Assembly (NCBI RefSeq): GCF_030064895.1
Contig: NZ_JASJEB010000039.1
Coordinates: forward strand, 1-32,255
Direction: 5' to 3'
From: Crocosphaera sp.
GTDB lineage: Bacteria > Cyanobacteriota > Cyanobacteriia > Cyanobacteriales > Microcystaceae
Length of the DNA: 32,255 nt
In this document: in pieces, positions 665 through 30,696 of the stretch
Numbering within the stretch: the first letter of the stretch is position 1
Layout of the letters: every line of letters starts with the position of its first letter
Translations under genes and position numbers: made by a program
Notes under the pieces: generated by a model
The model's input: the letters and a program-made list of their open reading frames with translations, nothing else
Told to the model about the DNA's origin: nothing
Databases searched by the model: none

Positions 665-994
665 ATGTCAGAAGAAAAAGGTATTTGGATTATTCGAGAA
701 ACTGATGATAGTAAAACTTCTTCGGCTGGAGGAGGTTACTATGATGATTCTGAAGAAAATAGTCGAGGTAACTTTGTTAGTGCTAGTCGCTTAAAACAAA
801 ATGTACATGATTTTTTAGAAGTTATACAAGATGCTTTTTCTCAGGCAGAAAATACAACTATTGGAATAGAATTGTCAGAATTAGAATGTTCCATTGAAAT
901 TAATGGAAAGGGTCAAATTGGGATTTTAGGAACCGGTGGTGAAGCTGGAGCTAAAGGAGCCATTAAGCTAAAGTTTATTCGGAAAAATGTCTAA
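665..994 (+). CDS. Small Pepco-like (peptidase co-occurring) protein
   Basis: A 109-residue acidic protein. The N-terminal 35 residues are Gly, Ser and Asp rich and probably disordered. Residues about 40-60 form a helix (LKQNVHDFLEVIQDAF). The C-terminal part alternates strands and glycine turns: GIELSELECSIEING, then GILGTGGEAGAKGAIKLKF. This pattern matches what I know of the Pepco and Trypco small domains, which are encoded beside caspase- or trypsin-like effectors in bacterial conflict systems. The gene overlaps the caspase start by 8 bases, which implies translational coupling. Its role is unknown; inhibiting, chaperoning or relaying a signal to the caspase are possibilities. The family assignment is from memory of the motif and was not searched. 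Confidence 0.65.
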   Translation: MSEEKGIWIIRETDDSKTSSAGGGYYDDSEENSRGNFVSASRLKQNVHDFLEVIQDAFSQAENTTIGIELSELECSIEINGKGQIGILGTGGEAGAKGAIKLKFIRKNV

Positions 995-3248
995 AAATTG
1001 GGCAATTTGTGTCGGGATAAATCGTTATTATTTTCATCGTATTTTAAGCTGTGCGGTGAATGATGCCACAGAAATGAGCAAATTTTTTAAAGAGGCAAAA
1101 TTTGATAATGTTTATCTATTTACTGATAATTCAGATCCTATTCCTGATATGAGGAATGACTTTCCTTCTCAACCAATGTATGGCAATTTTTATTCTTGGT
1201 TGGGCTATAAATTCAAAAAAGATAAACCCTTATTAACATTGTCTGACAATCTTTGGTTTTTCTTTAGTGGTCATGGTTTGGAATATCGAGGACAACATTA
1301 TCTATTATTTTCTGATAGTAGTGGTGATCCAGAATATTTTGAACGTACGGCAATTCCTCTTAATGAAATTACTAATTATCTCCGTCGTTCGGGAGCAGGA
1401 AATATTATCATACTGCTTGATGCTTGCCGAGATTCTTCCTCGAAAAGTTCTAGTTTTGAATTATCTAAAGAACAGGGAATTATAAAAATATCTTCTTGTC
1501 AACCCAATAAGTTATCCTATGAAATTAAATCTTTAAATCATGGAGCATTTACTTTTGCTTTATTAGAATCTTTACGGTTACAAGGAGAGGGTAATTGTGC
1601 GACAGTAGAAAGGTTATGTAAGCGGTTAAGAACTAGGGTTAAACAGTTGGCTTTAGAACATCTAAAAAAAACACAAACTCCCTATGAAGCGTTGGAACCA
1701 GCAAGTAAATATCATTTACTTTTATTACCTGATTATATTCATCCTAATGACTCAGACTTAGCTCTATTAAAAGCTGATGCGTTAGACGCTGAATTTGTTA
1801 AACAAGATTTTACATTAGCTGAAACAATATGGACTCGTTTAATTAAATTTAAAACCAATGAAGCTTTACAGTCTTTATATAGAATTCGAGATAAAGTCAA
1901 AGAGCAATCATCAACACCTAATATCACCGAAGAAAGTCCATCTAATCCAGAAATAATCAGTGAAGAAATAGTTTCTAAATCTAAGGCTAAAGTAGATGAA
2001 ATAAGCCTCAAAATTTGCACATTTGAAGTTGTAACCATTGAACAAAATGAAGACCCTGGACTAGAAGGAGGGGGTTTAAAAGACACTCAACAAGATAATA
2101 AAGAACAAAGTAAAGAAAGTAAAAAAAATGATTCCGTTTCTTTTCAAAAAAACAATAGTCAACAAAAATCTCATCTTTTTCAATTTTCTGTGGCTACGAT
2201 TGAAAAAGAAATTAAAGAAAATCAAAATCTACTATCGAGGTTTTTACCAGGAGAAGAACAATGGGTTATTAATAAGCAACAAAAAGAAGCTCAAGGTTTT
2301 ATAGAAGAACTAACCCCAGAAATCAAATTAGAACTAATGAAAATCCCTGGTGGTACATTCTGGATGGGAACCGATGATGAAGAAATTGAGCGACTGGTTA
2401 AAAAGTTTGATAGAAATTGGTTTACATGGGAAAAACCCCAACATCAAGTAATCCTTCAACCTTTTTCTATGGGACGTTATCCCATCACACAAGGACAATG
2501 GAAAGCTATAGCCGAACGAACGGAACTTAAAGTTAATATTGATTTAGATACTGACCCATCCCGTTTTAAAGACGATCCTCCTCAACCCTCTTTAGAACCA
2601 GACGAAACCCCCAAAACCCGATGGGATAGACCCGTTGAACGAGTAAGCTGGTATCAAGCTCAAGAATTTTGCGATCGCCTCTCTAAACTAACTGGCAAAC
2701 CCTATCGTTTACCTACAGAAGCTGAATGGGAATACGCCTGTAGAGCAGCTATCACTGATCAATCATCAGTTACCAGTCAGGAGTTAACCCTAGCAGAATG
2801 GAATCAGAAGTATCAACAACCCTTTCACTTTGGGGATACCATCACAGGAGACTTAGCTAACTATCGTGCCACCTATACCTATGCTGATGAACCCAAAGGT
2901 GAATATCGTGAGCAAACAACCCCTGTGGGCTATTTTAAGGTAGCCAACGCCTTTGGTTTATACGATATGCACGGAAACGTCTGGGAATGGTGTCAAGACG
3001 ATTTTAAGGATAACTATGACGGTGCGCCTAGTGACGGTAGTGCTTGGCTTCAACCTCAAAATTATAATCCTGATAATCAGTCATATTCAGATAAAAATAA
3101 GGAAAATAAGCCAAAAAAAGTGATTCGCGGCGGTTCTTGGAACTACAATCCTTTCGATTGCCGTTGCGCCTACCGCCTCTACAGCTACGCGCGCGGCAGC
3201 GGCAGTAATGTCGGGTTTCGTGTTGTGAGTGGCCCCCCCTGGACTTAG
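987..3248 (+). CDS. Caspase-like peptidase fused to a C-terminal FGE/C-type-lectin domain; DGR target 1
   Basis: A 753-residue protein in three parts. Residues 1-250 are a caspase (peptidase C14, orthocaspase) domain with both catalytic residues present: His96 in FFFSGHG and Cys147 in LLDACRD. Residues about 250-440 are a charged, low-complexity linker. Residues about 445-753 are a formylglycine-generating-enzyme-like (FGE-sulfatase) domain of C-type lectin fold, with PGGTFWMG, YRLPTEAEWEYACRA, GLYDMHGNVWEWC and RGGSW. The last 40 residues (about 714-751) are encoded by variable repeat VR1. In DGR targets this fold displays variable ligand-contact residues and is usually not an enzyme. The likely role is a protease switched on or off by a diversified sensor. 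It is coupled to the Pepco-like gene and followed by avd. A duplicate FGE domain is encoded at 5564-6517. Confidence 0.92.
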   Translation: MSKNWAICVGINRYYFHRILSCAVNDATEMSKFFKEAKFDNVYLFTDNSDPIPDMRNDFPSQPMYGNFYSWLGYKFKKDKPLLTLSDNLWFFFSGHGLEYRGQHYLLFSDSSGDPEYFERTAIPLNEITNYLRRSGAGNIIILLDACRDSSSKSSSFELSKEQGIIKISSCQPNKLSYEIKSLNHGAFTFALLESLRLQGEGNCATVERLCKRLRTRVKQLALEHLKKTQTPYEALEPASKYHLLLLPDYIHPNDSDLALLKADALDAEFVKQDFTLAETIWTRLIKFKTNEALQSLYRIRDKVKEQSSTPNITEESPSNPEIISEEIVSKSKAKVDEISLKICTFEVVTIEQNEDPGLEGGGLKDTQQDNKEQSKESKKNDSVSFQKNNSQQKSHLFQFSVATIEKEIKENQNLLSRFLPGEEQWVINKQQKEAQGFIEELTPEIKLELMKIPGGTFWMGTDDEEIERLVKKFDRNWFTWEKPQHQVILQPFSMGRYPITQGQWKAIAERTELKVNIDLDTDPSRFKDDPPQPSLEPDETPKTRWDRPVERVSWYQAQEFCDRLSKLTGKPYRLPTEAEWEYACRAAITDQSSVTSQELTLAEWNQKYQQPFHFGDTITGDLANYRATYTYADEPKGEYREQTTPVGYFKVANAFGLYDMHGNVWEWCQDDFKDNYDGAPSDGSAWLQPQNYNPDNQSYSDKNKENKPKKVIRGGSWNYNPFDCRCAYRLYSYARGSGSNVGFRVVSGPPWT
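3126..3239 (+). repeat. DGR variable repeat VR1
   Basis: 114 bases that align without gaps to the template repeat at 5071-5184. By eye there are 15 differences, and every one falls at an adenine of the template (7 to T, 7 to G, 1 to C). All 84 non-adenine template positions are unchanged. This is the defining signature of adenine-specific mutagenic retrohoming. The repeat ends in a run of seven C, 9 bases before the end of the caspase-FGE gene. The next base is A in TR but T here, so the mutagenised tract may run one base further. Confidence 0.95.
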
Positions 3249-3320
3249 TTGCACTTTGCTCTGTTTTCCTTTTGCCCTTTGCCCTCCGGCCCAAAAAATG
3301 GGCTACTTTACAAAAGTTAA
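3240..3320 (+). promoter_or_regulatory. Conserved 3' flank of VR1 (candidate IMH region)
   Basis: From the stop codon to about 3320 this sequence is nearly the same as the flank of VR2 at 6509-6587. The first 25 bases from the TAG are identical, followed by scattered differences, and both end in TACTTTACAAAAGTTAATA. TR does not share it and diverges right after its seven-C run. In the studied DGRs the 3' end of VR carries the initiation-of-mutagenic-homing (IMH) element, while TR carries a variant. Position and asymmetry fit that role. A 5-bp hairpin (GCCCA, loop of five A, TGGGC) is present here but not in the VR2 copy. Confidence 0.6.
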
Positions 3321-3475
3321 TATATTAGAGATAAAAGGCAATAATTTGTGAGATTTGTTGAGGCAATTAACCCCCAAATTTCTGTCATAATGATCAATCC
3401 ATGCTCTCTAAGCATTTCTGCACTGAAGCAAAAAGTAAAGCAAAAAGTAAAAAGCATAAAGGACTATTAGTATCA

Positions 3476-3868
3476 ATGAATGAATTGCCAGTTATTCAGA
3501 AAAGTTATGATTTTGTGAAATGGTTTGTTCCCATTTTAAATAAACTTCCCCGTGACCATAAATTTTCCTTGGGGGATAGAATGATTACTGAACTTTATGA
3601 ACTATTAGAAGGACTATTAAAAGCCAGATACAGTAAAAATAAATTAACTCAGTTAGTCGACTTAAACAGCCAATTAGATATTTTAAGGTATCAAACACGC
3701 TTACTGTATGATTTTGAATTAATTTCAGTTAAACGCTATGAGTATATCAATCAGCAATTACAAGGGATTGGTATAGAATTAGGGGGATGGATTAAACAGC
3801 AAAAACAACAAAATGGTAAGTTAAGAGCTAATAATAATCATTATGAAGATATAGCCAATTTTAACTAA
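3476..3868 (+). CDS. avd: Avd, accessory variability determinant of the DGR
   Basis: A 130-residue four-helix-bundle protein that in known DGRs forms a pentamer, binds the reverse transcriptase and the TR-containing RNA, and is required for mutagenic cDNA synthesis. Recognisable family segments are ELPVIQKSYDFVKWFVPILNK, FSLGDRM, LYELLEGLLKARY, LDILRYQTRLLYDF and LQGIGIELGGW. I chose the ATG at 3476 because the family begins there and an AAAGGA lies about 12 bases upstream. The frame is open back to an ATG at 3401, but the extra 25 residues are lysine rich, come from a 12-base tandem repeat and are not like Avd. It lies between target 1 and the reverse transcriptase, 59 bases before the latter. 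Confidence 0.88.
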   Translation: MNELPVIQKSYDFVKWFVPILNKLPRDHKFSLGDRMITELYELLEGLLKARYSKNKLTQLVDLNSQLDILRYQTRLLYDFELISVKRYEYINQQLQGIGIELGGWIKQQKQQNGKLRANNNHYEDIANFN

Positions 3869-3927
3869 GTAGTAGCACATCAATAAACAGCTTACTTAAG
3901 CTATAATTGAAGTTTAGAGATTAAAAA

Positions 3928-5010
3928 ATGAAGCGAATCGGTAATTTATTTGATAAAATAACTGCATTTGAAAATTTATTAGAAGCATCAAAAAAAGCAC
4001 AATCAGGTAAGCGATATCGAGACAGTGTTTTAGAATTTAATCATAATTTAGAAGGGAACTTACTAAACATCCAAAAAGAACTTAGAAATCATACCTATCA
4101 ACCAGGGAAATATCGCACATTTAGGATTTATGATCCCAAACCCCGTTTGATTTCTGCTGCTCCTTATCGAGATAGAGTCGTTCATCATGCTCTTTGTAAT
4201 ATTATTATTCCTCCTATTGAAAAAAGATTTATTAAAGATTCCTATGCTAATCGAGAAGGTTATGGAACTCATCGCGCTTTAAAACGATTTATTGACTTTG
4301 CACGGAACAGCAAATATATCTTACAATGTGATATTAAAAAATATTTTCCTAGTATTGATCACGAAATTCTTAAATTGCAAATTCGTCGTTATCTAAAATG
4401 TAAAGATACATTGTGGTTGATTGATAAGATTATTGATAATAGTAATGAACAAGAGCTATTTATAGAGGTCTTTCCAGGAGATACCTTATCAACTGTCTTA
4501 GAAAGAAGAAAAGGACTTCCTATCGGTAACTTAACCAGTCAATTCTTTTGTAATCTTTACCTGAATAAATTTGATCATTTTGTCAAAGAACAACTGAAAG
4601 CTAAAAAATATTTAAGATACGTAGATGACTTTGCCTTGTTATCCGATGATTGGGATTATTTAGCATCAGCGAGACAAGAAATTGAGGACTATTTAACCAA
4701 ATTAAGATTAAAACTTCATCTTATTAAAACTCAATTATTTGAAACAAAACAAGGGGCAAACTTTTTAGGATTTAGGGTCTTACCTGATCAAGTTAGAGTT
4801 AGAAACGATAATTTAAGGCGATCTCGTATACGATTAAGACAGTTACAGTACGATTACCGTTATGGGCAAATCTCCTTAGAAAAGTTAGTACAAAGTTTGC
4901 AAAGTTGGGAAGCGCATCTGATGCACGGAAATACTTATCGATTGCGACGAGATATTTTTGAGACATGGAAGTTTCAGCGACAAGAGTGGCATTTCCCAAA
5001 GAAAATCTAA
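3928..5010 (+). CDS. DGR reverse transcriptase
   Basis: A 360-residue RT with the motifs of the DGR clade. The catalytic motif is YVDD at residues 231-234. Motif 4 reads [10 protein letters not shown] at 196-205, where DGR enzymes carry GxxxSQ in place of the QGxxxSP of group II intron RTs. Other motifs are RDRVVHHAL, the [11 protein letters not shown] strand holding the first catalytic Asp, and GANFLGFRV near 275. No maturase or endonuclease domain is present, as expected. The enzyme copies TR RNA with errors at adenines, acting with Avd. The gene is followed by 60 bases and then TR on the same strand, so one transcript could supply RT and template. The sequence appears intact. Confidence 0.95.
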
Positions 5011-5070
5011 AATTTGGTTCAGAAGTGGCCGTAACATCCGAAGATGAATAACGGGACAGGCATGAGAAAA

Positions 5071-5184
5071 CGCGGCGGTTCTTGGAACAACAATCCTAAC
5101 AATTGCCGTTGCGCCAACCGCAACAACAACAACGCGCGCGACAACAACAATAATGTCGGGTTTCGTGTTGTGAGTGGCCCCCCC
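5071..5184 (+). repeat. DGR template repeat TR
   Basis: 114 bases beginning CGCGGCGGTTCTTGG and ending in seven C. It has 30 adenines, 28 of them in 14 AAY codons when read in the target frame. AAY randomised at both adenines gives NNY, which encodes 15 amino acids and never a stop, the known design of DGR templates. Both VRs match it except at adenines. The template is read as RNA, so the open frame through it (from 5044 to about 5343) is a by-product of its origin and not a gene. Its 5' neighbour is the RT gene; its 3' neighbour is a structured region. Confidence 0.95.
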
Positions 5185-5340
5185 AGCACTCTTCTGTGCC
5201 AGAACTGGCAGGTGGGAATCTGTCGGGCGTGCCGAAGAAGAGTCCAGACTTGTTCCGGTGATGTGAAAACATCCAAAAATAACCCAGAGTCAGTTAGCCT
5301 AGTAGGTATTGCCGAAACGTTAGCTGGCTCTACTCTTTTA
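5185..5340 (+). ncRNA. Structured RNA segment 3' of TR (spacer-like region of the DGR RNA)
   Basis: Four helices can be drawn by eye. (1) 5188-5195 pairs with 5236-5243 (ACTCTTCT/AGAAGAGT, 8 bp). (2) Inside it, 5197-5201 pairs with 5206-5210 (TGCCA/TGGCA). (3) 5260-5264 pairs with 5269-5273 closing a GAAA tetraloop. (4) 5286-5298 pairs with 5319-5331 (13 bp with three G-U pairs), followed by a pyrimidine-rich stretch ending CTTTTA, possibly the transcript end. In the Bordetella phage DGR the spacer 3' of TR is structured and is needed for Avd-RT binding and priming of cDNA. The segment here has a similar position relative to TR, although RT lies upstream of TR in this locus. Function is inference; the pairings are seen. 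Confidence 0.65.
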
Positions 5341-5563
5341 TAGTAGGAGGCCGGAGGCAGGGGGTAAAAACCTTGCTACTATTAGGTTTCAGTTTTTCAA
5401 AATGTCCTAACTGCGTTGGCGGTTGCTATATTAGTGAGAAAAATGACTCAGGCGATCGCTTATTTCAAGCAGATTGACTGCCCTAATCTATGTGTCGACT
5501 CCTATAAATAAATGTTGTCTGGTTAACGCAAAACTTAATGCAAGAAATGTCTATATCTAAAAA
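5341..5563. other. Intergenic region between DGR RNA and target 2
   Basis: 220 bases without a gene. It has a purine-rich stretch just after the structured region, a HIP1 site near 5452 and an AT-rich lead into target 2. I see no confident sigma-70 promoter, so target 2 could be read through from the upstream operon or have its own unrecognised promoter. Confidence 0.5.
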
Positions 5564-6517
5564 ATGGCCACTAAATTAGTTATTAAAAAGGAACAACGAC
5601 AGGCAAGATACTATACAGAGGATTTAGGTGATGGCATCACTCTGGATATGATGGAAATTCCAGGGGATGAATTTATGATGGGAACCGACGACGCAGAAAT
5701 AGCCAGACTATGTAAAGAATACGAGGTAAATTATTTTCAATGGGAAAGTCCTCAACACAAAGTAACCGTTCCCAGGTTTTTTATGGGCAAATATCCCATT
5801 ACTCAGGCGCAATGGAAAGCGATCGCCTCTCGAACTGATTTAAAAGTCAACATCGACTTAAAAGAAGATCCCTCTCATTTCAAAGACCCTTATCAACAAG
5901 ACCAAGAAACCATAGAAAGATGGCTTAGACCTGTTGAACAAGTTTCTTGGTATGAAGCTGTTGAATTCTGTGAACGTCTGTCTAAACTAACAAAAAGGGA
6001 TTATAGGCTACCTAGTGAGGCTCAATGGGAATATGCTTGTCGTGCAGGGACAACCACTGCTTTCCATTTTGGTGAAACCATAACCACAGATTTAGCTAAC
6101 TACCGAGGAACAGACTTTGAATATGAGAAGAAAATTTATCCGGGCAATTATGGAAAAGGACCAAAAGGAATTTATCGAGAACAAACCACCCCTGTAGGCC
6201 ACTTTAAGGTAGCTAACGCCTTTGGTTTATACGATATGCACGGAAACGTTTGGGAATGGTGTCAAGACGATTGGCATGGTGATTATAAGGATGCACCTAC
6301 TGATGGTAGTGCTTGGCTTGATCCTCAAAATTCTAATCTTGATAATCAGTCAAATTTAGATGAAAGTAACGATAATGAAGCAACAAAGCTCATTCGCGGC
6401 GGTTCTTGGTACGACCTTCCTGACGATTGCCGTTGCGCCAACCGCTACATCAACCTCGCGCGCGACTACTACGATGATGTCGGGTTTCGTGTTGTGAGTG
6501 GCCCCCCCAGGACTTAG
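5564..6517 (+). CDS. Stand-alone FGE/C-type-lectin protein; DGR target 2
   Basis: A 317-residue protein consisting almost only of an FGE-sulfatase-like C-type-lectin domain, homologous to residues 445-753 of the caspase fusion. Shared signatures are MMGTDDAEI, FFMGKYPITQAQWKAI, RLPSEAQWEYACRAG, NAFGLYDMHGNVWEWC and LIRGGSW. The last 40 residues (about 278-315) are encoded by VR2. It has no signal peptide, membrane segment or effector domain, so it is probably a cytosolic variable binding protein. It could be a soluble partner, decoy or spare sensor for the caspase system. The ATG at 5564 is used because an earlier ATG at 5539 leads to a quick stop in another frame; the ribosome site is weak. 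Confidence 0.9.
   Translation: MATKLVIKKEQRQARYYTEDLGDGITLDMMEIPGDEFMMGTDDAEIARLCKEYEVNYFQWESPQHKVTVPRFFMGKYPITQAQWKAIASRTDLKVNIDLKEDPSHFKDPYQQDQETIERWLRPVEQVSWYEAVEFCERLSKLTKRDYRLPSEAQWEYACRAGTTTAFHFGETITTDLANYRGTDFEYEKKIYPGNYGKGPKGIYREQTTPVGHFKVANAFGLYDMHGNVWEWCQDDWHGDYKDAPTDGSAWLDPQNSNLDNQSNLDESNDNEATKLIRGGSWYDLPDDCRCANRYINLARDYYDDVGFRVVSGPPRT
6395..6508 (+). repeat. DGR variable repeat VR2
   Basis: 114 bases aligned without gaps to TR. There are 14 differences, all at template adenines (7 to T, 5 to G, 2 to C). Only one mutated codon (the fifth AAY, changed to GAT) has the same outcome in VR1, so the two targets were diversified independently. It ends in seven C and then the last codons of the gene, like VR1. 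Confidence 0.95.
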
Positions 6518-6587
6518 TTGCACTTTGCTCTGTTTTCCTCTTGCCCTTTGCACTCCGCGCCACAAATTGGGTACTTTACAAAAGTTA
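6509..6587 (+). promoter_or_regulatory. Conserved 3' flank of VR2 (candidate IMH region)
   Basis: This is the counterpart of 3240-3320. The 25 bases from the stop codon are identical and the similarity continues to GTTAATA at about 6587, after which the two loci differ. TR lacks it. It is interpreted as the target-side element that directs homing, duplicated with the target. Confidence 0.55.
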
Positions 6588-7541: not shown

Positions 7542-7590
7542 GTCGGGCAGAATTCCCTAACGTTCTATAACTTAGGGATGAATGCCCGAC
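7542..7590. repeat. Left-end imperfect palindrome of the IS element
   Basis: GTCGGGCA (7542-7549) pairs with TGCCCGAC (7583-7590). TCCCTAA (7554-7560) pairs with TTAGGGA (7572-7578), with a symmetric 4x4 internal loop and an 11-base end loop. In the family such hairpins are read by TnpA on single-stranded DNA. No TnpA is encoded here, so movement would need one in trans. Confidence 0.75.
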
Positions 7591-7630
7591 CAATGAATAA
7601 ATCGCAAAGCGTCCACTTCCTATTGTCTTG

Positions 7631-7639
7631 TGCTATAAT
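7631..7639 (+). promoter_or_regulatory. Extended -10 promoter for tnpB
   Basis: TGCTATAAT is a perfect TATAAT preceded by the TGN of an extended -10. No good -35 lies 17 bases upstream. Transcription would begin near 7646, downstream of the ATG at 7578, so the gene's working start must be later. Confidence 0.55.
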
Positions 7640-7661
7640 TATATCACTAACTATACTTTCT

Positions 7662-8885
7662 GTGAAACCATTGTACAGAGCCGTAAAAGTCCGAATTTAT
7701 CCCAGATCAGAACAATCCCAAAAACTTAGTCAAGTCATGGGGTGTGCTAGATGGTGGTGGAATTATGCTTTGAATCTGTGCAATGAGACTTACAAGGAAA
7801 CAGGTAAAGGGTTGAGTCGGGTAGCTCTCAATAAAGTATTGCCAAAGCTCAAAAAAGAAGAGGAAACCGCATGGTTAAAAGAGTGTTACTCCCAGGTCTT
7901 GCAGTCAATTACTCTCAACTTGACAAAAGCCTTCAAAAACTTCTTTGAAGGTAGAGCTAAGTACCCAAGATTCAAGTCATATCATGGTAAGCAATCTTGT
8001 CAATACCCTCAGTATTGCTCAGTGGTTGATAAAGGAGTCAAAATTCCGCAAGTGGGGGTGATTAAAGCCTCTATCCATAGGTTATTTGACGGACAATTAA
8101 AGACTGTTACCATTACTAAAACACCAACAGGAAAATATTATGCTTCATTGTTGTTTGACACTGAACAAGAGACTCCTGAAGTAGTGACAAGTGGAAAAGT
8201 TACAGGAATTGATTTAGGGCTTAAAGACTTCTGTCTTACCCATAATGGTGAAAAAACATCGAAGTATGCTAACCCTAAACATCTAAAAAAACATGAGAAA
8301 AACTTAGCTAGAAAACAAGCCAAATTAGCCCGTAAGAAAAAAGGAAGTAAATCTAGAGAAAAAGCTAAAAAGCTTGTAGCTAGAGTTCACGAACGTATTA
8401 GCAATGCCCGTCAAGACTTTCTACACAAGTTATCAAGAAAAATTGTTGATGATAATCAGATAGTAGTCGTTGAGAATTTGAATATCAAGGGTATGGTTCG
8501 TAATCATAACTTAGCTAAAGCTATCTCTGATGTCGGATGGGGAATGTTTGTCAATTTCCTCGCTTATAAACTAGAGCAAAAAGGTGGTTTATTGGTTGAG
8601 ATTGATAGATGGTTTCCTAGTAGTAAAACTTGCTCTAATTGCCTATATCAGATGTCAGAAATGCCATTAGATATTAGGGAATGGACTTGTCCGAGTTGCG
8701 GTACACACCATGATAGGGATGAAAATGCGTCCAAAAATATTAGAGCAGAAGGCATCAGACAAATATCGGTCTTGGGAACCAGGACTGCTGCTGAAGGAGG
8801 GGAAATAAGACCGAAAGGTGGGCGTAAGTCTGTCTTGAGGCATTCCCCCGTGAGTTCAGAAGCCCCAACTTCAACGAAGCCTTAG
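7662..8885 (+). CDS. tnpB: TnpB, RNA-guided nuclease of an IS200/IS605-type element
   Basis: TnpB is the transposon-encoded ancestor of Cas12: it uses an omega RNA from the element's right end to cut DNA. The RuvC triad appears intact: Asp in GIDLGLKDF (codon at 8211), Glu in VVVENLNIKGM (8472) and Asp in HDRDENASKN (8718). A zinc ribbon, CSNC and CPSC, lies between the last two. The N-terminal OrfB helix-turn-helix region (RAVKVRIYP, GCARWWWNYAL) is present. The frame is open from ATG 7578, but that ATG lies inside the left hairpin and upstream of the likely promoter. GTG 7662 gives the usual family start, about 5 residues before RAVKVRIYP, and 407 residues. No ribosome site is clear. The stop falls inside the right hairpin. 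Confidence 0.9.
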   Translation: MKPLYRAVKVRIYPRSEQSQKLSQVMGCARWWWNYALNLCNETYKETGKGLSRVALNKVLPKLKKEEETAWLKECYSQVLQSITLNLTKAFKNFFEGRAKYPRFKSYHGKQSCQYPQYCSVVDKGVKIPQVGVIKASIHRLFDGQLKTVTITKTPTGKYYASLLFDTEQETPEVVTSGKVTGIDLGLKDFCLTHNGEKTSKYANPKHLKKHEKNLARKQAKLARKKKGSKSREKAKKLVARVHERISNARQDFLHKLSRKIVDDNQIVVVENLNIKGMVRNHNLAKAISDVGWGMFVNFLAYKLEQKGGLLVEIDRWFPSSKTCSNCLYQMSEMPLDIREWTCPSCGTHHDRDENASKNIRAEGIRQISVLGTRTAAEGGEIRPKGGRKSVLRHSPVSSEAPTSTKP

Positions 8886-12632: not shown

Positions 12633-13607
12633 ATGCAATCTACAAATGCTCAGACTATTGCCGATCAACCTTATCTAAACTTACTATCAAAAGTAGATTT
12701 TAGCCCTATTTTTATTATGGGAGATCATCGCTCAGGGACTACTTTGTTATACAAAACTTTGGCGGCAACAGAGTGTTTTAACTATGTCAAAGCTTACCAT
12801 ATTATCAAATATGACGAACTTCTGTCTAATCATCTTAATCATACTGAAACTCAGAGGATTGAAGAATTAGCAGAACAGTTTAAATCTCTTGGTATTAGCG
12901 ATCGCACTATAGATAATGTTATTGTCACACCAGAATTACCTGAAGAATATGGATTTATTCTTAAGAATATTGTTGATGATGAGTCATATATCACTCCTAA
13001 GAATTTACTCGTTTTTCAACAGTTATGTAAAAAAATACAATTAACATCCGATTCCGCAAAACCTTTATTACTGAAAAATCCTTGGGACTTTCCACAATTT
13101 ATGTATGTAAAGGAGATTATACCTAATGCAAAATTTGTTTTTATTCATCGTCATCCCCTTCATGTTATTAATTCTAAATTAAAAGCCGTACGCATTTTGC
13201 TTTCTTCTTGGAACCCCTATACTGCTTTAATTGCTCAGTGGTACAGAACAATATTTAAAAATCCCTTTCAACGCTATTTATACCAACTATTATATTCTCA
13301 ATATTTCAACTTAGGAGTACGTCGAGTTACAGAAGAGTCTCTAAAATCAACTACATATTTTTTGCAAAATGTTGACTCATTATCTAGTCAAGATTACCTC
13401 TCCATCACATATGAAGATTTATGTCAAGAACCACAAAAAACTATCGAAAAAATTTTAGACTTTTTAGGATTAGAAGCACAAGAAACTTTGGATTATCAAA
13501 AATTAATCAAACCTCGTCCGATTAATTTATTACCAGAAGTCGAAAAAAACGCTCAAAAAATTCGTCAGCAATTACAGGCTTATTTTACTTATTATAACTA
13601 TAATTAA
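12633..13607 (+). CDS. PAPS-dependent sulfotransferase family protein
   Basis: A 324-residue protein with the two nucleotide-binding motifs of sulfotransferases. The 5' phosphosulfate loop is FIMGDHRSGTTLLY (residues about 27-40), and the 3' phosphate-binding segment is FVFIHRHPLHVINSKL (about 168-183). A C-terminal region (ITYEDLCQEPQKTIEKILDFLGL) is typical of Sulfotransfer_3 / Stf0-like enzymes. It would move a sulfo group from PAPS to a hydroxyl of a lipid, sugar or small molecule. The gene ends 14 bases before a condensation-fold acyltransferase on the same strand, so they likely form an operon. Substrate is unknown. The start at ATG 12633 gives the usual short N-terminal lead. Confidence 0.85.
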   Translation: MQSTNAQTIADQPYLNLLSKVDFSPIFIMGDHRSGTTLLYKTLAATECFNYVKAYHIIKYDELLSNHLNHTETQRIEELAEQFKSLGISDRTIDNVIVTPELPEEYGFILKNIVDDESYITPKNLLVFQQLCKKIQLTSDSAKPLLLKNPWDFPQFMYVKEIIPNAKFVFIHRHPLHVINSKLKAVRILLSSWNPYTALIAQWYRTIFKNPFQRYLYQLLYSQYFNLGVRRVTEESLKSTTYFLQNVDSLSSQDYLSITYEDLCQEPQKTIEKILDFLGLEAQETLDYQKLIKPRPINLLPEVEKNAQKIRQQLQAYFTYYNYN

Positions 13608-13621
13608 ACAGGAATAATTTT

Positions 13622-14950
13622 ATGTCATCAGTAGAAAGAAAACTCGGTTCAGTTGAAAATATTTTTCATATCATTCATGAACTTGGCGGCATGATAGATG
13701 TTAATATTGCTCGCATTGAAGGAGATATACAGCCTCATATTTTACAAAAAGCACTCTTATTACTACAAAACCGTTATCCTTTGCTTCGAGTTCGTATAAT
13801 TGACCTGGAGGATGGAGCTTATTTTAGTTCTGAAAATATACAAAAAATCCCCTTAAAGGTTATGACAAAAACTTATGAAAATCAATGGTTAGAAATTGCT
13901 GAATCAGAACTACACCAAAAATTTTCTCAAGGTTTCAATCCCTTATGTCGTATCACTTTACTTAAATCTTCTTTTCGGGATGGTATTAGTGAAATTATTG
14001 CTACTTTTCATTATTCTATTGCCGATGGTTTATCTTGTATGAACTTTATTGATAATCTCCTAATTTATTATCAGAAAATTGTTAGCCAAGAAGAAATATC
14101 TAATCCTAGTAGTTTAGCTTTTCCTCCTCCAATAGAACAAAATATAGATAAAAATTCAGTAAATTATAGTCAAACAGAAGATACAAAAAATGAAGATTCA
14201 TCAGATAGTCTAAGTCCTAAATTAATTCTCGAAAATGACGCTAAAATTAATGAAAGACGTACCCATATTATTAACAGAATCATTGACTCAAAAACTCTTT
14301 TAAATTTGAAAGAGCAATCTAGAAACCAAAAAACAACAATACACGGTGCTTTATGCGCAGCAATGTTGTTGGGAACCAAAACAATTTCAAATTTTGAAGA
14401 ACCGGTAAATTTATCTTGTAGTTCCAATATAAATTTACGCAAATATAGTCAACCAGAAATTGATATGAATAGTTTTGGTTGTTTTGTTTCTAGCGTAGAA
14501 AATATTTATACTTTAACAAAGAATATAAACTTTTGGGATTTAGCTAGAAACTGTAAAGAACAAATTGAGCTTAATAAAAACCAGACTATTAATAATCTAA
14601 TTAATGGTCAGAGATTCGCTAATTTTAGTAAATTAACACTGGAAAAAATGTTAGAGCAAAATTCCACAGGAAGAGTTAAAACAATGAACATTTCTAATCG
14701 TGGAAAATTTAACTTAGCCAAAAACTATGGTCAACTAAAAATAAAAGAAATTTATTTTACTGTGGGACAACATATTTTAGGACCTTGTCTTTGGTTGGGT
14801 GCAGTAACTTTTCATGACAAACTATGTTTGAGTTTTGCCCATGTCACCCCTTTAATCAGTTCTCAAACTATGAATAATTTTGCTGATAGTGTAGTAAGTA
14901 TTCTAGAAAAAGTTACTATTGGAGAATCTTTAAGTAAGGGAAATGGATAG
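13622..14950 (+). CDS. Condensation-domain-fold acyltransferase (PapA/alcohol acyltransferase-like) with altered active site
   Basis: A 442-residue stand-alone protein of the CoA-dependent acyltransferase / NRPS condensation superfamily. N-terminal features are LQKALLLLQNRYPLLRVRI and, at 130-136, the active-site motif, which reads HYSIADG where the family has HHxxxDG; the second, catalytic His is Tyr131 here. C-terminal features are VNLSCSSNINLR and an NRGKFNL segment resembling the family's latch/DFGWG area. Family members esterify alcohols or pass acyl groups between carriers. It lies directly after the sulfotransferase gene, so sulfated and acylated products such as sulfolipids are plausible. 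Loss of the His may mean low activity, a binding role or a different mechanism. Confidence 0.75.
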   Translation: MSSVERKLGSVENIFHIIHELGGMIDVNIARIEGDIQPHILQKALLLLQNRYPLLRVRIIDLEDGAYFSSENIQKIPLKVMTKTYENQWLEIAESELHQKFSQGFNPLCRITLLKSSFRDGISEIIATFHYSIADGLSCMNFIDNLLIYYQKIVSQEEISNPSSLAFPPPIEQNIDKNSVNYSQTEDTKNEDSSDSLSPKLILENDAKINERRTHIINRIIDSKTLLNLKEQSRNQKTTIHGALCAAMLLGTKTISNFEEPVNLSCSSNINLRKYSQPEIDMNSFGCFVSSVENIYTLTKNINFWDLARNCKEQIELNKNQTINNLINGQRFANFSKLTLEKMLEQNSTGRVKTMNISNRGKFNLAKNYGQLKIKEIYFTVGQHILGPCLWLGAVTFHDKLCLSFAHVTPLISSQTMNNFADSVVSILEKVTIGESLSKGNG

Positions 14951-26652: not shown

Positions 26653-27396
26653 TTAATTTACAGGTGTAAATGTTTCAACGGTAAAATAACTCAATTCAGA
26701 TGCTTCATAATACACAATTCCTCGTTTTAGTAATTCATCATTAATTTGCCAATCAACTCCAATTAAAAACGATTGATTTTGCTCCACTATTTTGGGACAA
26801 GTGACGATAATATTATCGCCAAGGTCTTGTATTAAATAATCTTTATTCAATTCCTTGATTGATTTCCAATTAGTTTTTATTGGTTCAGAAATTACCTTGT
26901 CAGTCGTCATTTTTTGTAAACTTCCTATCCAGGTTTCATCAGCTTTTTTAAGTTCAGCATGGTTATTTTTATTTTGTTGAGTATCTTTATTATTCAAATA
27001 TTCGATTCCAGTCGAACTATATTGTAGTGTTCCAGTTTCATCATATCGAAAATAACAAAGCACTCGTTTATCTTCATATCGAAATCCAAATTCAAAAATA
27101 AAGATTGCATCAGGTTTCACTATTTTAGAACCCCAACAAAAGGTACTATCTAGGAATAAAGCACTGGTTTGAGGTTTTTTATAGATACCATAATTCTTAA
27201 CTTCATTAGTTCCATCACTATAAAATAATTCATCCTGATGGGTTATTTCACTTTGATCTTGATTCAGATGAAGATGAGTAATAACATCCCAAGTTCTAAT
27301 CACTTTACCCTCTGGAGAATAGCGTTTTTTGCTTCCTTTCCAATCTCCAGTATGATAATTACAGAAATTATCCCAATTTTTAAGTTGTATATTCAT
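26653..27396 (-). CDS. DUF3598 family protein, copy 1
   Basis: A 247-residue protein that I assign to DUF3598 by its start (NWDNFCNYHTGDWKGSKKRYSPEGKVIRTWDVITHL) and by similarity in layout to the gene at 29908-30696. The family is predicted to have a calycin (lipocalin-like) beta barrel, suited to binding a hydrophobic ligand. The second half (LIQDLGDNIIVTCPKIVEQNQSFLIGVDWQIND) corresponds to the DUF3598 C-terminal portion. No signal peptide or membrane segment. It probably shares a transcript with the methyltransferase gene and is divergent from the VOC gene, with 65 bases between. Confidence 0.8.
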   Translation of the reverse strand: MNIQLKNWDNFCNYHTGDWKGSKKRYSPEGKVIRTWDVITHLHLNQDQSEITHQDELFYSDGTNEVKNYGIYKKPQTSALFLDSTFCWGSKIVKPDAIFIFEFGFRYEDKRVLCYFRYDETGTLQYSSTGIEYLNNKDTQQNKNNHAELKKADETWIGSLQKMTTDKVISEPIKTNWKSIKELNKDYLIQDLGDNIIVTCPKIVEQNQSFLIGVDWQINDELLKRGIVYYEASELSYFTVETFTPVN

Positions 27397-29907: not shown

Positions 29908-30696
29908 ATGATCGATCTTAAAGAGAAAAACTGGCAACATTTTACCGATCAACATTTATATGATTGGCATGGTATTTGGACGCGATATACTCCCACAGGA
30001 GAAGTGATGGAGTCATTTCGTAGTCTGAGACATTTTGAAGGTAATGGTGACAATACAGAAATTTATCAGCTAAATCAATATATTTATGCTGAAGATGATG
30101 TTAAAGAACAAAGGTGGAATTTTAATCAGAAAGAAAATAGTTTATTGGATGGGATGTTTCATCCTCAAGCTGAGTTAATGCGGGGTTATTTCTTTCCTTC
30201 TGGTCATTCTATTTGGGCAACAACTCAGTTAAAATCAGAAGCTTATTTTGCAATGGAGTTATTTTTTAGATACCAAAGTCTCAGACATAGTGTTGGTATC
30301 GTTTATGATGACCAAGGAAATTTATTTAGAACTGCTAATATTCGAGAAGATTTCACTGGTTACCCTTCTTCCTATTGGTCAACAGATTTAGAACAATTAT
30401 CCCAACGAAATCTAAACAAAAATTGGCAAGGAACATCTATAAGCATTACTTCTAATTTAGAAATTTCTGAACCTATTTCTACTCAATTTAGTTGGGATAG
30501 GAAAGGACATAAATTCTTCTATTTACCTGATGGTGTTTCTATTAGCTGTCCCGAAAAAGTAACTGTAGGAACCTCTTTTGATTGTGTTGTTAATTGGTTA
30601 ATTAATGAAAGCGAAATGCAACAATTAATTCCCAGTTATGATGTAACAGGGAAGTTTCAATCTTTAACCCTTGAAAAATATGAGTTAAAACACTAA
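29908..30696 (+). CDS. DUF3598 family protein, copy 2
   Basis: A 262-residue protein with the DUF3598 start (NWQHFTDQHLYDWHGIWTRYTPTGEVMESFRSLRHFEG). The overall layout matches the gene at 26653-27396, including a late segment with ISCPEKVTVGTSFDCVVNWLIN (compare VTCPKIVEQNQSFLIGVDWQIN). The fold is predicted to be lipocalin-like, binding a hydrophobic molecule. A GAGGA ribosome site precedes ATG 29908. It follows the Rieske remnant by 31 bases on the same strand, so an intact oxygenase and this protein were probably once co-transcribed. It ends 10 bases from the SDR on the other strand. Confidence 0.82.
   Translation: MIDLKEKNWQHFTDQHLYDWHGIWTRYTPTGEVMESFRSLRHFEGNGDNTEIYQLNQYIYAEDDVKEQRWNFNQKENSLLDGMFHPQAELMRGYFFPSGHSIWATTQLKSEAYFAMELFFRYQSLRHSVGIVYDDQGNLFRTANIREDFTGYPSSYWSTDLEQLSQRNLNKNWQGTSISITSNLEISEPISTQFSWDRKGHKFFYLPDGVSISCPEKVTVGTSFDCVVNWLINESEMQQLIPSYDVTGKFQSLTLEKYELKH

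Follow-up and report, generated by a model that had tools for sequence, protein, structure and literature searches.

A cyanobacterial diversity-generating retroelement with two targets, a conserved RNA beside its template and a pyrimidine tract behind its variable repeats

The window analysed here, a stretch of 32,255 nucleotides from Crocosphaera sp. (contig NZ_JASJEB010000039.1 of assembly GCF_030064895.1), contains a locus that we identify, with a probability of about 0.93, as a complete diversity-generating retroelement (DGR) of the cyanobacterial lineage. A single template repeat (TR) is matched by variable repeats (VR1 and VR2) in two target genes, and every difference between template and targets before a 3' junction falls on an adenine of the template. 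The locus additionally codes for a reverse transcriptase (RT) and the accessory protein Avd; a structured RNA, conserved among relatives, starts where the TR ends, and a pyrimidine-rich tract lies behind each VR.

Adenine-directed differences between the TR and both VRs

Ungapped comparison of VR1 (3126-3239) and VR2 (6395-6508) with the TR (5071-5184) over 114 bases revealed 15 and 14 substitutions respectively, all 29 of which lie on the TR's 30 adenines, while the non-adenine sites are identical in all three segments (84/84). If sites were drawn at random such distributions would have probabilities of 7e-11 for VR1 and 5e-10 for VR2. A preliminary description of this DNA had given these substitution counts with none at a non-adenine, and realignment bears them out; the 114-base extent that it assigned to the match needs amendment, as the similarity continues for two more bases, to 5186, and includes a further A->T change in VR1 (3240 opposite 5185). 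With this extension 30/30 changes before the junction are at adenines, and the first non-adenine difference is a C->G at TR position 5187, seen in both VRs. Over the 114 bases the two VRs together show 14 A->T, 12 A->G and 3 A->C changes. The VRs have six mutated sites in common, against seven expected under independence, and the outcome is the same at one of these, which supports the earlier suggestion that the VRs share few mutated outcomes and were diversified independently. The adenines of the TR occupy first (15) and second (15) but no third codon positions and form 14 in-frame AAY codons, so the arithmetic of the previously proposed repertoire of order 10^16 per target holds (15^14 = 2.9e16). 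A search of the genome assembly (5.5 Mb, 188 contigs, 98% complete) with 102 bases of the TR in A-to-N form, allowing up to 3 mismatches, recovered these three places only. The preliminary description had overlooked the RNA 3' of the TR, the C->G junction, the pyrimidine tracts and the sister DGRs treated below.

The two targets are paralogues, with 168/262 identical residues in the FGE domain preceding the VR. Fourfold degenerate sites agree between them in 18/18 cases within the VRs as against 29/60 in the aligned upstream FGE domains, and third codon positions within the VRs are identical throughout (38/38). Because of this difference in fourfold agreement we conclude that both VRs have been overwritten from the TR, in line with the earlier proposal that the DGR was active after the separation of its targets.

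Gene content of the locus

The features of the locus, all on the forward strand, are as follows:

665-994, +, Pepco-domain protein of 109 aa (Pfam PF24393, E 6e-23), overlapping the caspase-FGE gene directly downstream
987-3248, +, target 1, caspase-FGE fusion of 753 aa, with a peptidase C14 caspase domain at residues 4-233 and an FGE-sulfatase/C-type-lectin-type domain at residues 451-747 (Pfam)
3126-3240, +, VR1, 16 A-directed changes in 115 bases (15 in the first 114)
3241-3242, +, VR1 junction GG, proposed discriminator between the initiation of mutagenic homing site of the VR (IMH) and its TR counterpart (IMH*), the TR having GC (5186-5187)
3249-3292, +, pyrimidine tract 3' of target 1
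3289-3303, +, weak hairpin of 5 bp with a 5-nt loop (DNA fold -5.4 kcal/mol, z -2.1)
3401-3868, +, Avd accessory protein (NF033474, 134.4 bits with a cut-off of 80; bAvd PF22296)
3928-5010, +, DGR reverse transcriptase of 360 aa (PF00078), in which [10 protein letters not shown] is intact, as is YVDD
5071-5186, +, TR, from alignment to the VRs
5181-5334, +, structured RNA R1 at the TR 3' end, from covariation, a relative of Rfam RT-14
5564-6517, +, target 2, FGE-only protein of 317 aa (PF03781)
6395-6508, +, VR2, 14 A-directed changes
6510-6511, +, VR2 junction GG, the TR having GC
6518-6561, +, pyrimidine tract 3' of target 2, without a clear hairpin behind it

The closest PDB relative of the RT is 8ub7 (E 4e-54; title 'Reverse transcriptase'), which we take to be the RT of Bordetella phage BPP-1, with group II intron RTs following at 5e-16. 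In this alignment the segment [10 protein letters not shown] corresponds to GIPIGSLTSQ and YVDD to YMDD, giving the shared motifs IGxLTSQ and YxDD. The RT is 57-69% identical to full-length cyanobacterial RTs and 34-51% identical to non-cyanobacterial DGR RTs. Together with an Avd scoring above its curated cut-off and the adenine-only rule, the relationship to 8ub7 substantiates the initial assignment of the locus to the adenine-mutagenising DGRs. As is typical of DGRs, each VR lies near the 3' end of a target gene whose product has a C-type-lectin-fold-type (FGE-sulfatase) domain. An AlphaFold2 model of target 2 (mean pLDDT 81.5) retrieved PvdO (5hha) and the Treponema denticola variable protein 2y3c (E 5.5e-15) in Foldseek searches. 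Target 1 contains the motifs SGHG and DACR, which presumably carry the His-Cys dyad of its caspase domain. Sequence searches found no PDB relatives of Avd or of the caspase part, PADLOC returned generic RT and caspase matches only, and scans for promoters and terminators gave weak signals with counts close to those in shuffles.

A conserved structured RNA belonging to the TR

An alignment of 26 loci shows conservation of the stretch immediately 3' of the TR, which folds into helices at 5188-5194/5237-5243, 5198-5199/5231-5232, 5205-5213/5218-5226, 5260-5263/5270-5273 and 5287-5299/5318-5330. RNAalifold assigns 40 base pairs to this RNA, R1, and in 31/40 of them both sides have changed. By an independent count 95.9% of the cells are paired, with at most 46% in slid versions, and cells with double changes number 179 versus 48.8 +- 8.1 in shuffles. 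In what follows L and G numbers denote loci and genomes, and C39, C177, C28 and C155 are contigs of the Crocosphaera genome itself. A model of R1 matches 34/49 sources, namely all 26 aligned loci plus 8 more, among which L054 is the same locus as L019, and L045 and L046 are weak. No match was found in five non-cyanobacterial DGR loci (L042, L048, L049, L050, L052), in six other RT loci or in the cyanobacterial loci L033, L043, L047 and L053. The idea that R1 is a general DGR RNA was rejected, as the non-cyanobacterial DGR loci have neither an R1 match nor an Rfam RT-n family. In the loci where the TR precedes the RT (L034, L038, L040, L041) the RNA also precedes the RT; the RNA thus stays with the TR whatever the position of the RT, which indicates that it belongs to the TR.

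No Rfam family reaches its gathering score in the window. R1 gives a full-length match to RT-14 (RF02921) at 46.0 bits (E 3.9e-5), below the gathering score of 48.1, and RT-14 also matches 6/9 further loci, one of them above gathering (L059, 50.1 bits), and 0/6 orphan loci. In a permissive search 7/16 full-length cyanobacterial RNAs showed a full-length RT-14 match at the R1 coordinates and 9/16 showed none. R1 is hence related to RT-14, and is not a member of it by gathering score. Across 292 cyanobacterial genomes R1 was detected in 27 and the RT (E 1e-60) in 18, with 16 having both. Twelve RNA loci have no RT or Avd nearby; an FGE gene stands beside the RNA in 11 of these, and Pepco with caspase-FGE in 4. 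An apparently stand-alone RNA in G004 was discarded, the RT there being cut by the contig end. In L075 (G050; RNA at 5285-5444, minus strand) the caspase-FGE gene itself ends in a TR-like, A-rich sequence, which continues directly into the RNA.

Junction, pyrimidine tract and hairpin at the target sites

We examined the target sites in two sets of loci. The first comprises 46 RNA-bearing loci; 46 VR/TR pairs were obtained from 37 of them, the 9 without a VR by our criteria being excluded; the second comprises 17 loci, 16 with a VR, giving 21 pairs. In the Crocosphaera locus IMH differs from IMH* by GG versus GC at 5186-5187 in both VRs. The same junction recurs in the first set, where 33/46 pairs have GG in the VR at RNA positions 6-7 and the TR does not, and 6 more have G at position 6 only (39/46 altogether). 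In the second set a G in the VR stands against a non-G in the TR in 17/21 pairs.

A pyrimidine tract, defined as 40 nt of which at least 80% are pyrimidines and lying within 60 nt behind the VR, follows 39/46 VRs of the first set as against 1.1% of random windows. Counted by genes, it is present at 33/38 VR gene ends versus 7/472 other gene ends, and four of these seven (L035, L036, L043, L045) are themselves FGE targets of DGR loci. For the second set the presence of the tract was recorded in writing as a prediction before the test, and it was found behind 21/21 VRs. Among 20 FGE paralogues of the genus, one of which (L116) is cut at an internal stop, a single one has the tract, and that one is the VR-like C155 copy described below. 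Five VRs of non-cyanobacterial DGRs have pyrimidine fractions of 0.53-0.68, none reaching 0.8. The tract has repeat periods of 7-8 and 15 nt, and its composition and 7-8-nt period are kept though the sequences differ.

The tract usually ends at a short hairpin rich in GC, with a stem of 5-7 bp and a loop of 3-5 nt, which is present behind 33/46 VRs of the first set and 16/21 of the second, compared with 22/467 other gene ends and 10/1340 shuffles. A scan of 60-95 nt had suggested that the tract replaces the hairpin; this was rejected when a 130-nt rescan showed the hairpin behind most VRs of the relatives, so that the tract comes in addition to it. Neither is the tract a dispersed genomic repeat, as all three copies of the 90-base stretch in this genome follow a VR, nor an H-DNA mirror repeat or complement of the RNA, there being no excess over shuffles.

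Based on these observations we propose, at about even odds, that fixed cis signals separate donor from target: the RT-14-like RNA 3' of the TR would mark the donor, and the junction G with a tract of about 50-60 nt, its 7-8-nt repeat and usually a GC hairpin would mark the target, the tract being a homing signal. As part of the same proposal the module of target, TR and RNA may outlive the RT or travel without it, being served in trans. A somewhat less probable alternative is that the tract is a 3' untranslated region, a termination feature or a cyanobacterial intergenic repeat which travels with the target cassette and has no part in homing. Consistent with such a passive role, tracts remain behind target orthologues without an RT (L078, L079, L084), the downstream VR of the sister DGR on C39 has 13/14 changes at adenines and yet no tract, and the tract shows neither excess RNA pairing nor an excess of mirror repeats. 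Against it stand the near-restriction of the tract to VR gene ends, its occurrence throughout the second set, its absence from all FGE paralogues other than the VR-like one, and the persistence of composition and period despite sequence divergence.

Sister DGRs and the adenine-only pattern across genomes

The Crocosphaera genome has three DGR loci, namely that of the window and sisters on C39 and C177. The C39 RT is 78% identical to the window RT, and its locus is composed of an upstream EAD1-VMAP gene, MoxR-like and vWA-like genes, Avd, RT, TR and an FGE-only target; the MoxR-like and vWA-like assignments are our own reading, Pfam having returned only FGE on the vWA-like gene. The changes in its two VRs are at adenines in 8/8 and 13/14 cases. 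The C177 RT is split into two pieces corresponding to residues 1-198 and 275-352 of the window RT; a 23S_rRNA_IVP-type open reading frame lies between these pieces (L015 7721-8086, minus strand), flanked by a pyrimidine/purine-rich repeat. The C177 VRs differ from their own TR at adenines in 10/16 and 11/19 cases (21/35 in total), so that this locus, with its broken RT, has lost the adenine-only pattern. Compared with the TR of a genus-mate's DGR (L019, contig C5 of genome G001) the same VRs show 12/14 and 12/15 changes at adenines, a better fit that is as expected if the C177 TR had drifted after homing stopped.

Two further genes of this genome have VR-like 3' ends: a NACHT-FGE gene on C28 (L117:2563-5835), with 13/16 mismatches to the C39 TR at adenines, and a kinase-like-FGE gene on C155 (L118:2622-4610), with 15/25, which appears older. 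From these sequence matches both are likely remote targets of the C39 TR.

In the first set, with mismatches counted before the junction, pairs with an RT present have 541/563 mismatches at adenines (27/36 pairs adenine-only), the two pairs with the split RT of C177 have 21/35, and those with no RT within about 5 kb have 101/137 (3/8 pairs adenine-only). The second set gives 282/316, with 13 adenine-only pairs. Two orphan loci from two genera, L067 and L068, contain Pepco, caspase-FGE, TR and RNA and have adenine-only VR/TR differences (8/8 and 14/14); their TR and RNA are 98-100% identical to each other and the gene about 80-90%. In G003, where neither a DGR RT nor the RNA was found, a target 1 orthologue has 37 differences from the window TR, 18 of them at adenines.

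These comparisons bear on the possibility that the window DGR was recently silenced, both VRs having been diversified before expression or a host factor was lost, so that they are now fossils. Silenced or broken DGRs are indeed common here, as seen in the split RT of C177 and in the RT-less RNA loci, where 8/12 gave VR/TR pairs and 5/8 of these pairs have non-adenine changes, and the hairpin behind the window VRs is weak or missing. Nevertheless, the RT, Avd, TR and RNA of the window locus are all intact, and its 30/30 changes at adenines differ from the 21/35 of its broken sister (p 4e-5), which makes recent silencing unlikely. Ordinary paralogy, with duplication followed by divergence under positive selection on the protein, has next to no probability and is refuted as a sole cause: the targets are indeed paralogous and the VR encodes the lectin-type binding face, but selection cannot confine 29/29 changes to the adenines of a non-coding copy while keeping 18/18 fourfold sites identical, and FGE orthologues without a DGR vary in the mixed fashion of the G003 copy.

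Several observations weigh against our interpretation of the locus. The VR/TR pattern, as a sequence record, establishes activity in the past, not in the present. Beyond the VRs, the last 60 codons before them are unusually alike between the targets (9/11 fourfold sites, 149/180 bases), as are about 85 bases on their 3' side (91%); some homogenisation, exchange or shared descent thus extends past the VRs. The hairpin behind VR1 has 5 bp (-5.4 kcal/mol) and is weak, and nothing convincing follows VR2. In the second set L127 (11/27 at adenines) and L125 (10/16) depart from the adenine-only rule though an RT is present, and conversely the orphan pairs of L067, L068 and L072 have no non-adenine change and no RT within about 5 kb; genome-wide searches of G239 (L067) and G111 (L068) found no DGR-like RT. 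An intact RT nearby is hence an incomplete predictor of the pattern. VR-like targets have also been kept in G003 and G008, with neither RT nor RNA detected. Finally, the genomes of the nearest relatives contain no near-identical copy of the locus, the closest RT outside being 69% identical.

Proposed mechanism and role of the targets

In our model a single transcript would cover the TR and the structured RNA 3' of it, and a complex of RT and Avd would bind this RNA and copy the TR into complementary DNA (cDNA), misincorporating opposite template adenines. The cDNA would then replace the homologous VR of one or the other target. Its entry point would be the junction at which the VR has G and the TR a non-G, with the pyrimidine tract, plus the GC hairpin where present, marking or opening the target. 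By analogy with BPP-1, R1 may be the spacer RNA, the junction G a part of the IMH and the hairpin the stem-loop. As the predicted outcome, the ligand-binding FGE/lectin-type domains of the caspase fusion and of the stand-alone FGE protein would have altered residues. Both targets are probably sensors of a conflict system, either anti-phage or cell-death, and we propose that the caspase is released when the variable domain binds. The locus places hypervariation on a caspase fusion, which may act as a trigger of death or defence. In a Pfam scan of 24 target proteins from related loci, caspase-FGE recurs in L028, L036 and L041; it also recurs in four orphan loci, and Pepco stands beside caspase-FGE in L028, L078, L079, L066, L067, L068 and L075.

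Other genes of the window

The DGR is adjoined by a TnpB of the IS200/IS605 type (7578-8885), with no TnpA noticed beside it. Elsewhere the window codes for a sulfotransferase (12633-13607), a condensation-domain protein (13622-14950) and a P450 (14974-16362), and two DUF3598_N proteins on opposite strands (26653-27396, 29908-30696) flank a region with an LCM-type methyltransferase.

Comparison with known systems

The comparisons below draw on portions of the cited papers. Cyanobacterial DGRs described by Vallota-Eastman et al. 2020 (PMC7517822) and, as clade 5E, by Dore et al. 2024 (PMC10907252) share with the window an RT of the same group, Avd, a TR downstream of the RT and FGE/CLec targets, as well as several targets per TR, orthocaspase fusions and an association with conflict-system domains. 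Both FGE targets of the caspase type and the notion that they serve conflict systems as antigen sensors are in print (PMC7517822, PMC10907252), and the clade is reported almost only from multicellular hosts (PMC10907252). What distinguishes the window from the DGRs in those portions is that an FGE-only target is combined with Pepco and caspase-FGE. It also differs from the VMAP ternary conflict system of VMAP, MoxR ATPase and vWA in having Pepco and caspase-FGE. Already known are the DGR itself and its clade, targets of the caspase-FGE type, the sharing of one TR by two targets, and activity in a relative. The portions of PMC7517822 and PMC10907252 considered here do not mention the RNA, the junction G or the tract, and we found no literature description of an RT-14-related RNA at the TR 3' end, a junction G or a tract, which is weak evidence given the thin coverage of subscription literature. 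The structured RNA and the tract may be working parts; if so, sequence alone would suffice to find remote targets and templates of DGRs in cyanobacteria. The three DGR loci of this one genome, one with a split RT and a lost adenine-only pattern, provide a built-in control.

BPP-1 shares with the window the A-directed transfer from TR to VR, Avd and RT, and a structured spacer RNA after the TR (PMC3240598, PMC12875486), as well as near-identity of IMH and IMH* at the 3' end. A hairpin 3' of the VR is common to BPP-1 and most relatives of the window locus (49/67 VRs). In BPP-1 the folded spacer RNA recruits RT-Avd and one of its adenines primes cDNA at IMH*. Efficiency there is increased by a stem-loop behind the VR, which perhaps keeps the target open (PMC12875486, PMC3240598). 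The systems differ in that the window TR follows the RT, whereas that of BPP-1 lies between avd and the RT, and in that hairpins of the BPP-1 type have 7-10 bp at 4-34 bp from the VR, whereas those of the relatives have 5-7 bp, mostly at about 40-70 nt, and in the window the hairpin is weak or missing. The relatives' hairpins lie behind the tract, for which the BPP-1 passages offer no named counterpart.

Among cyanobacteria, Nodularia spumigena has a strong transcription start site 199 nt downstream of its DGR RT (PMC3610870). The Nostoc punctiforme DGR likewise has one TR and two targets, with a highly expressed TR-RNA and adenine mutation of both targets in culture, and differs in its neighbours, which are CHAT, MoxR and VWA genes in place of the Pepco-caspase pair of the window (PMC12691664). 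If the RNA and the tract are working parts, the features that turn a VR into a target could be tested in this culturable organism, in which the DGR is reportedly active (PMC12691664).

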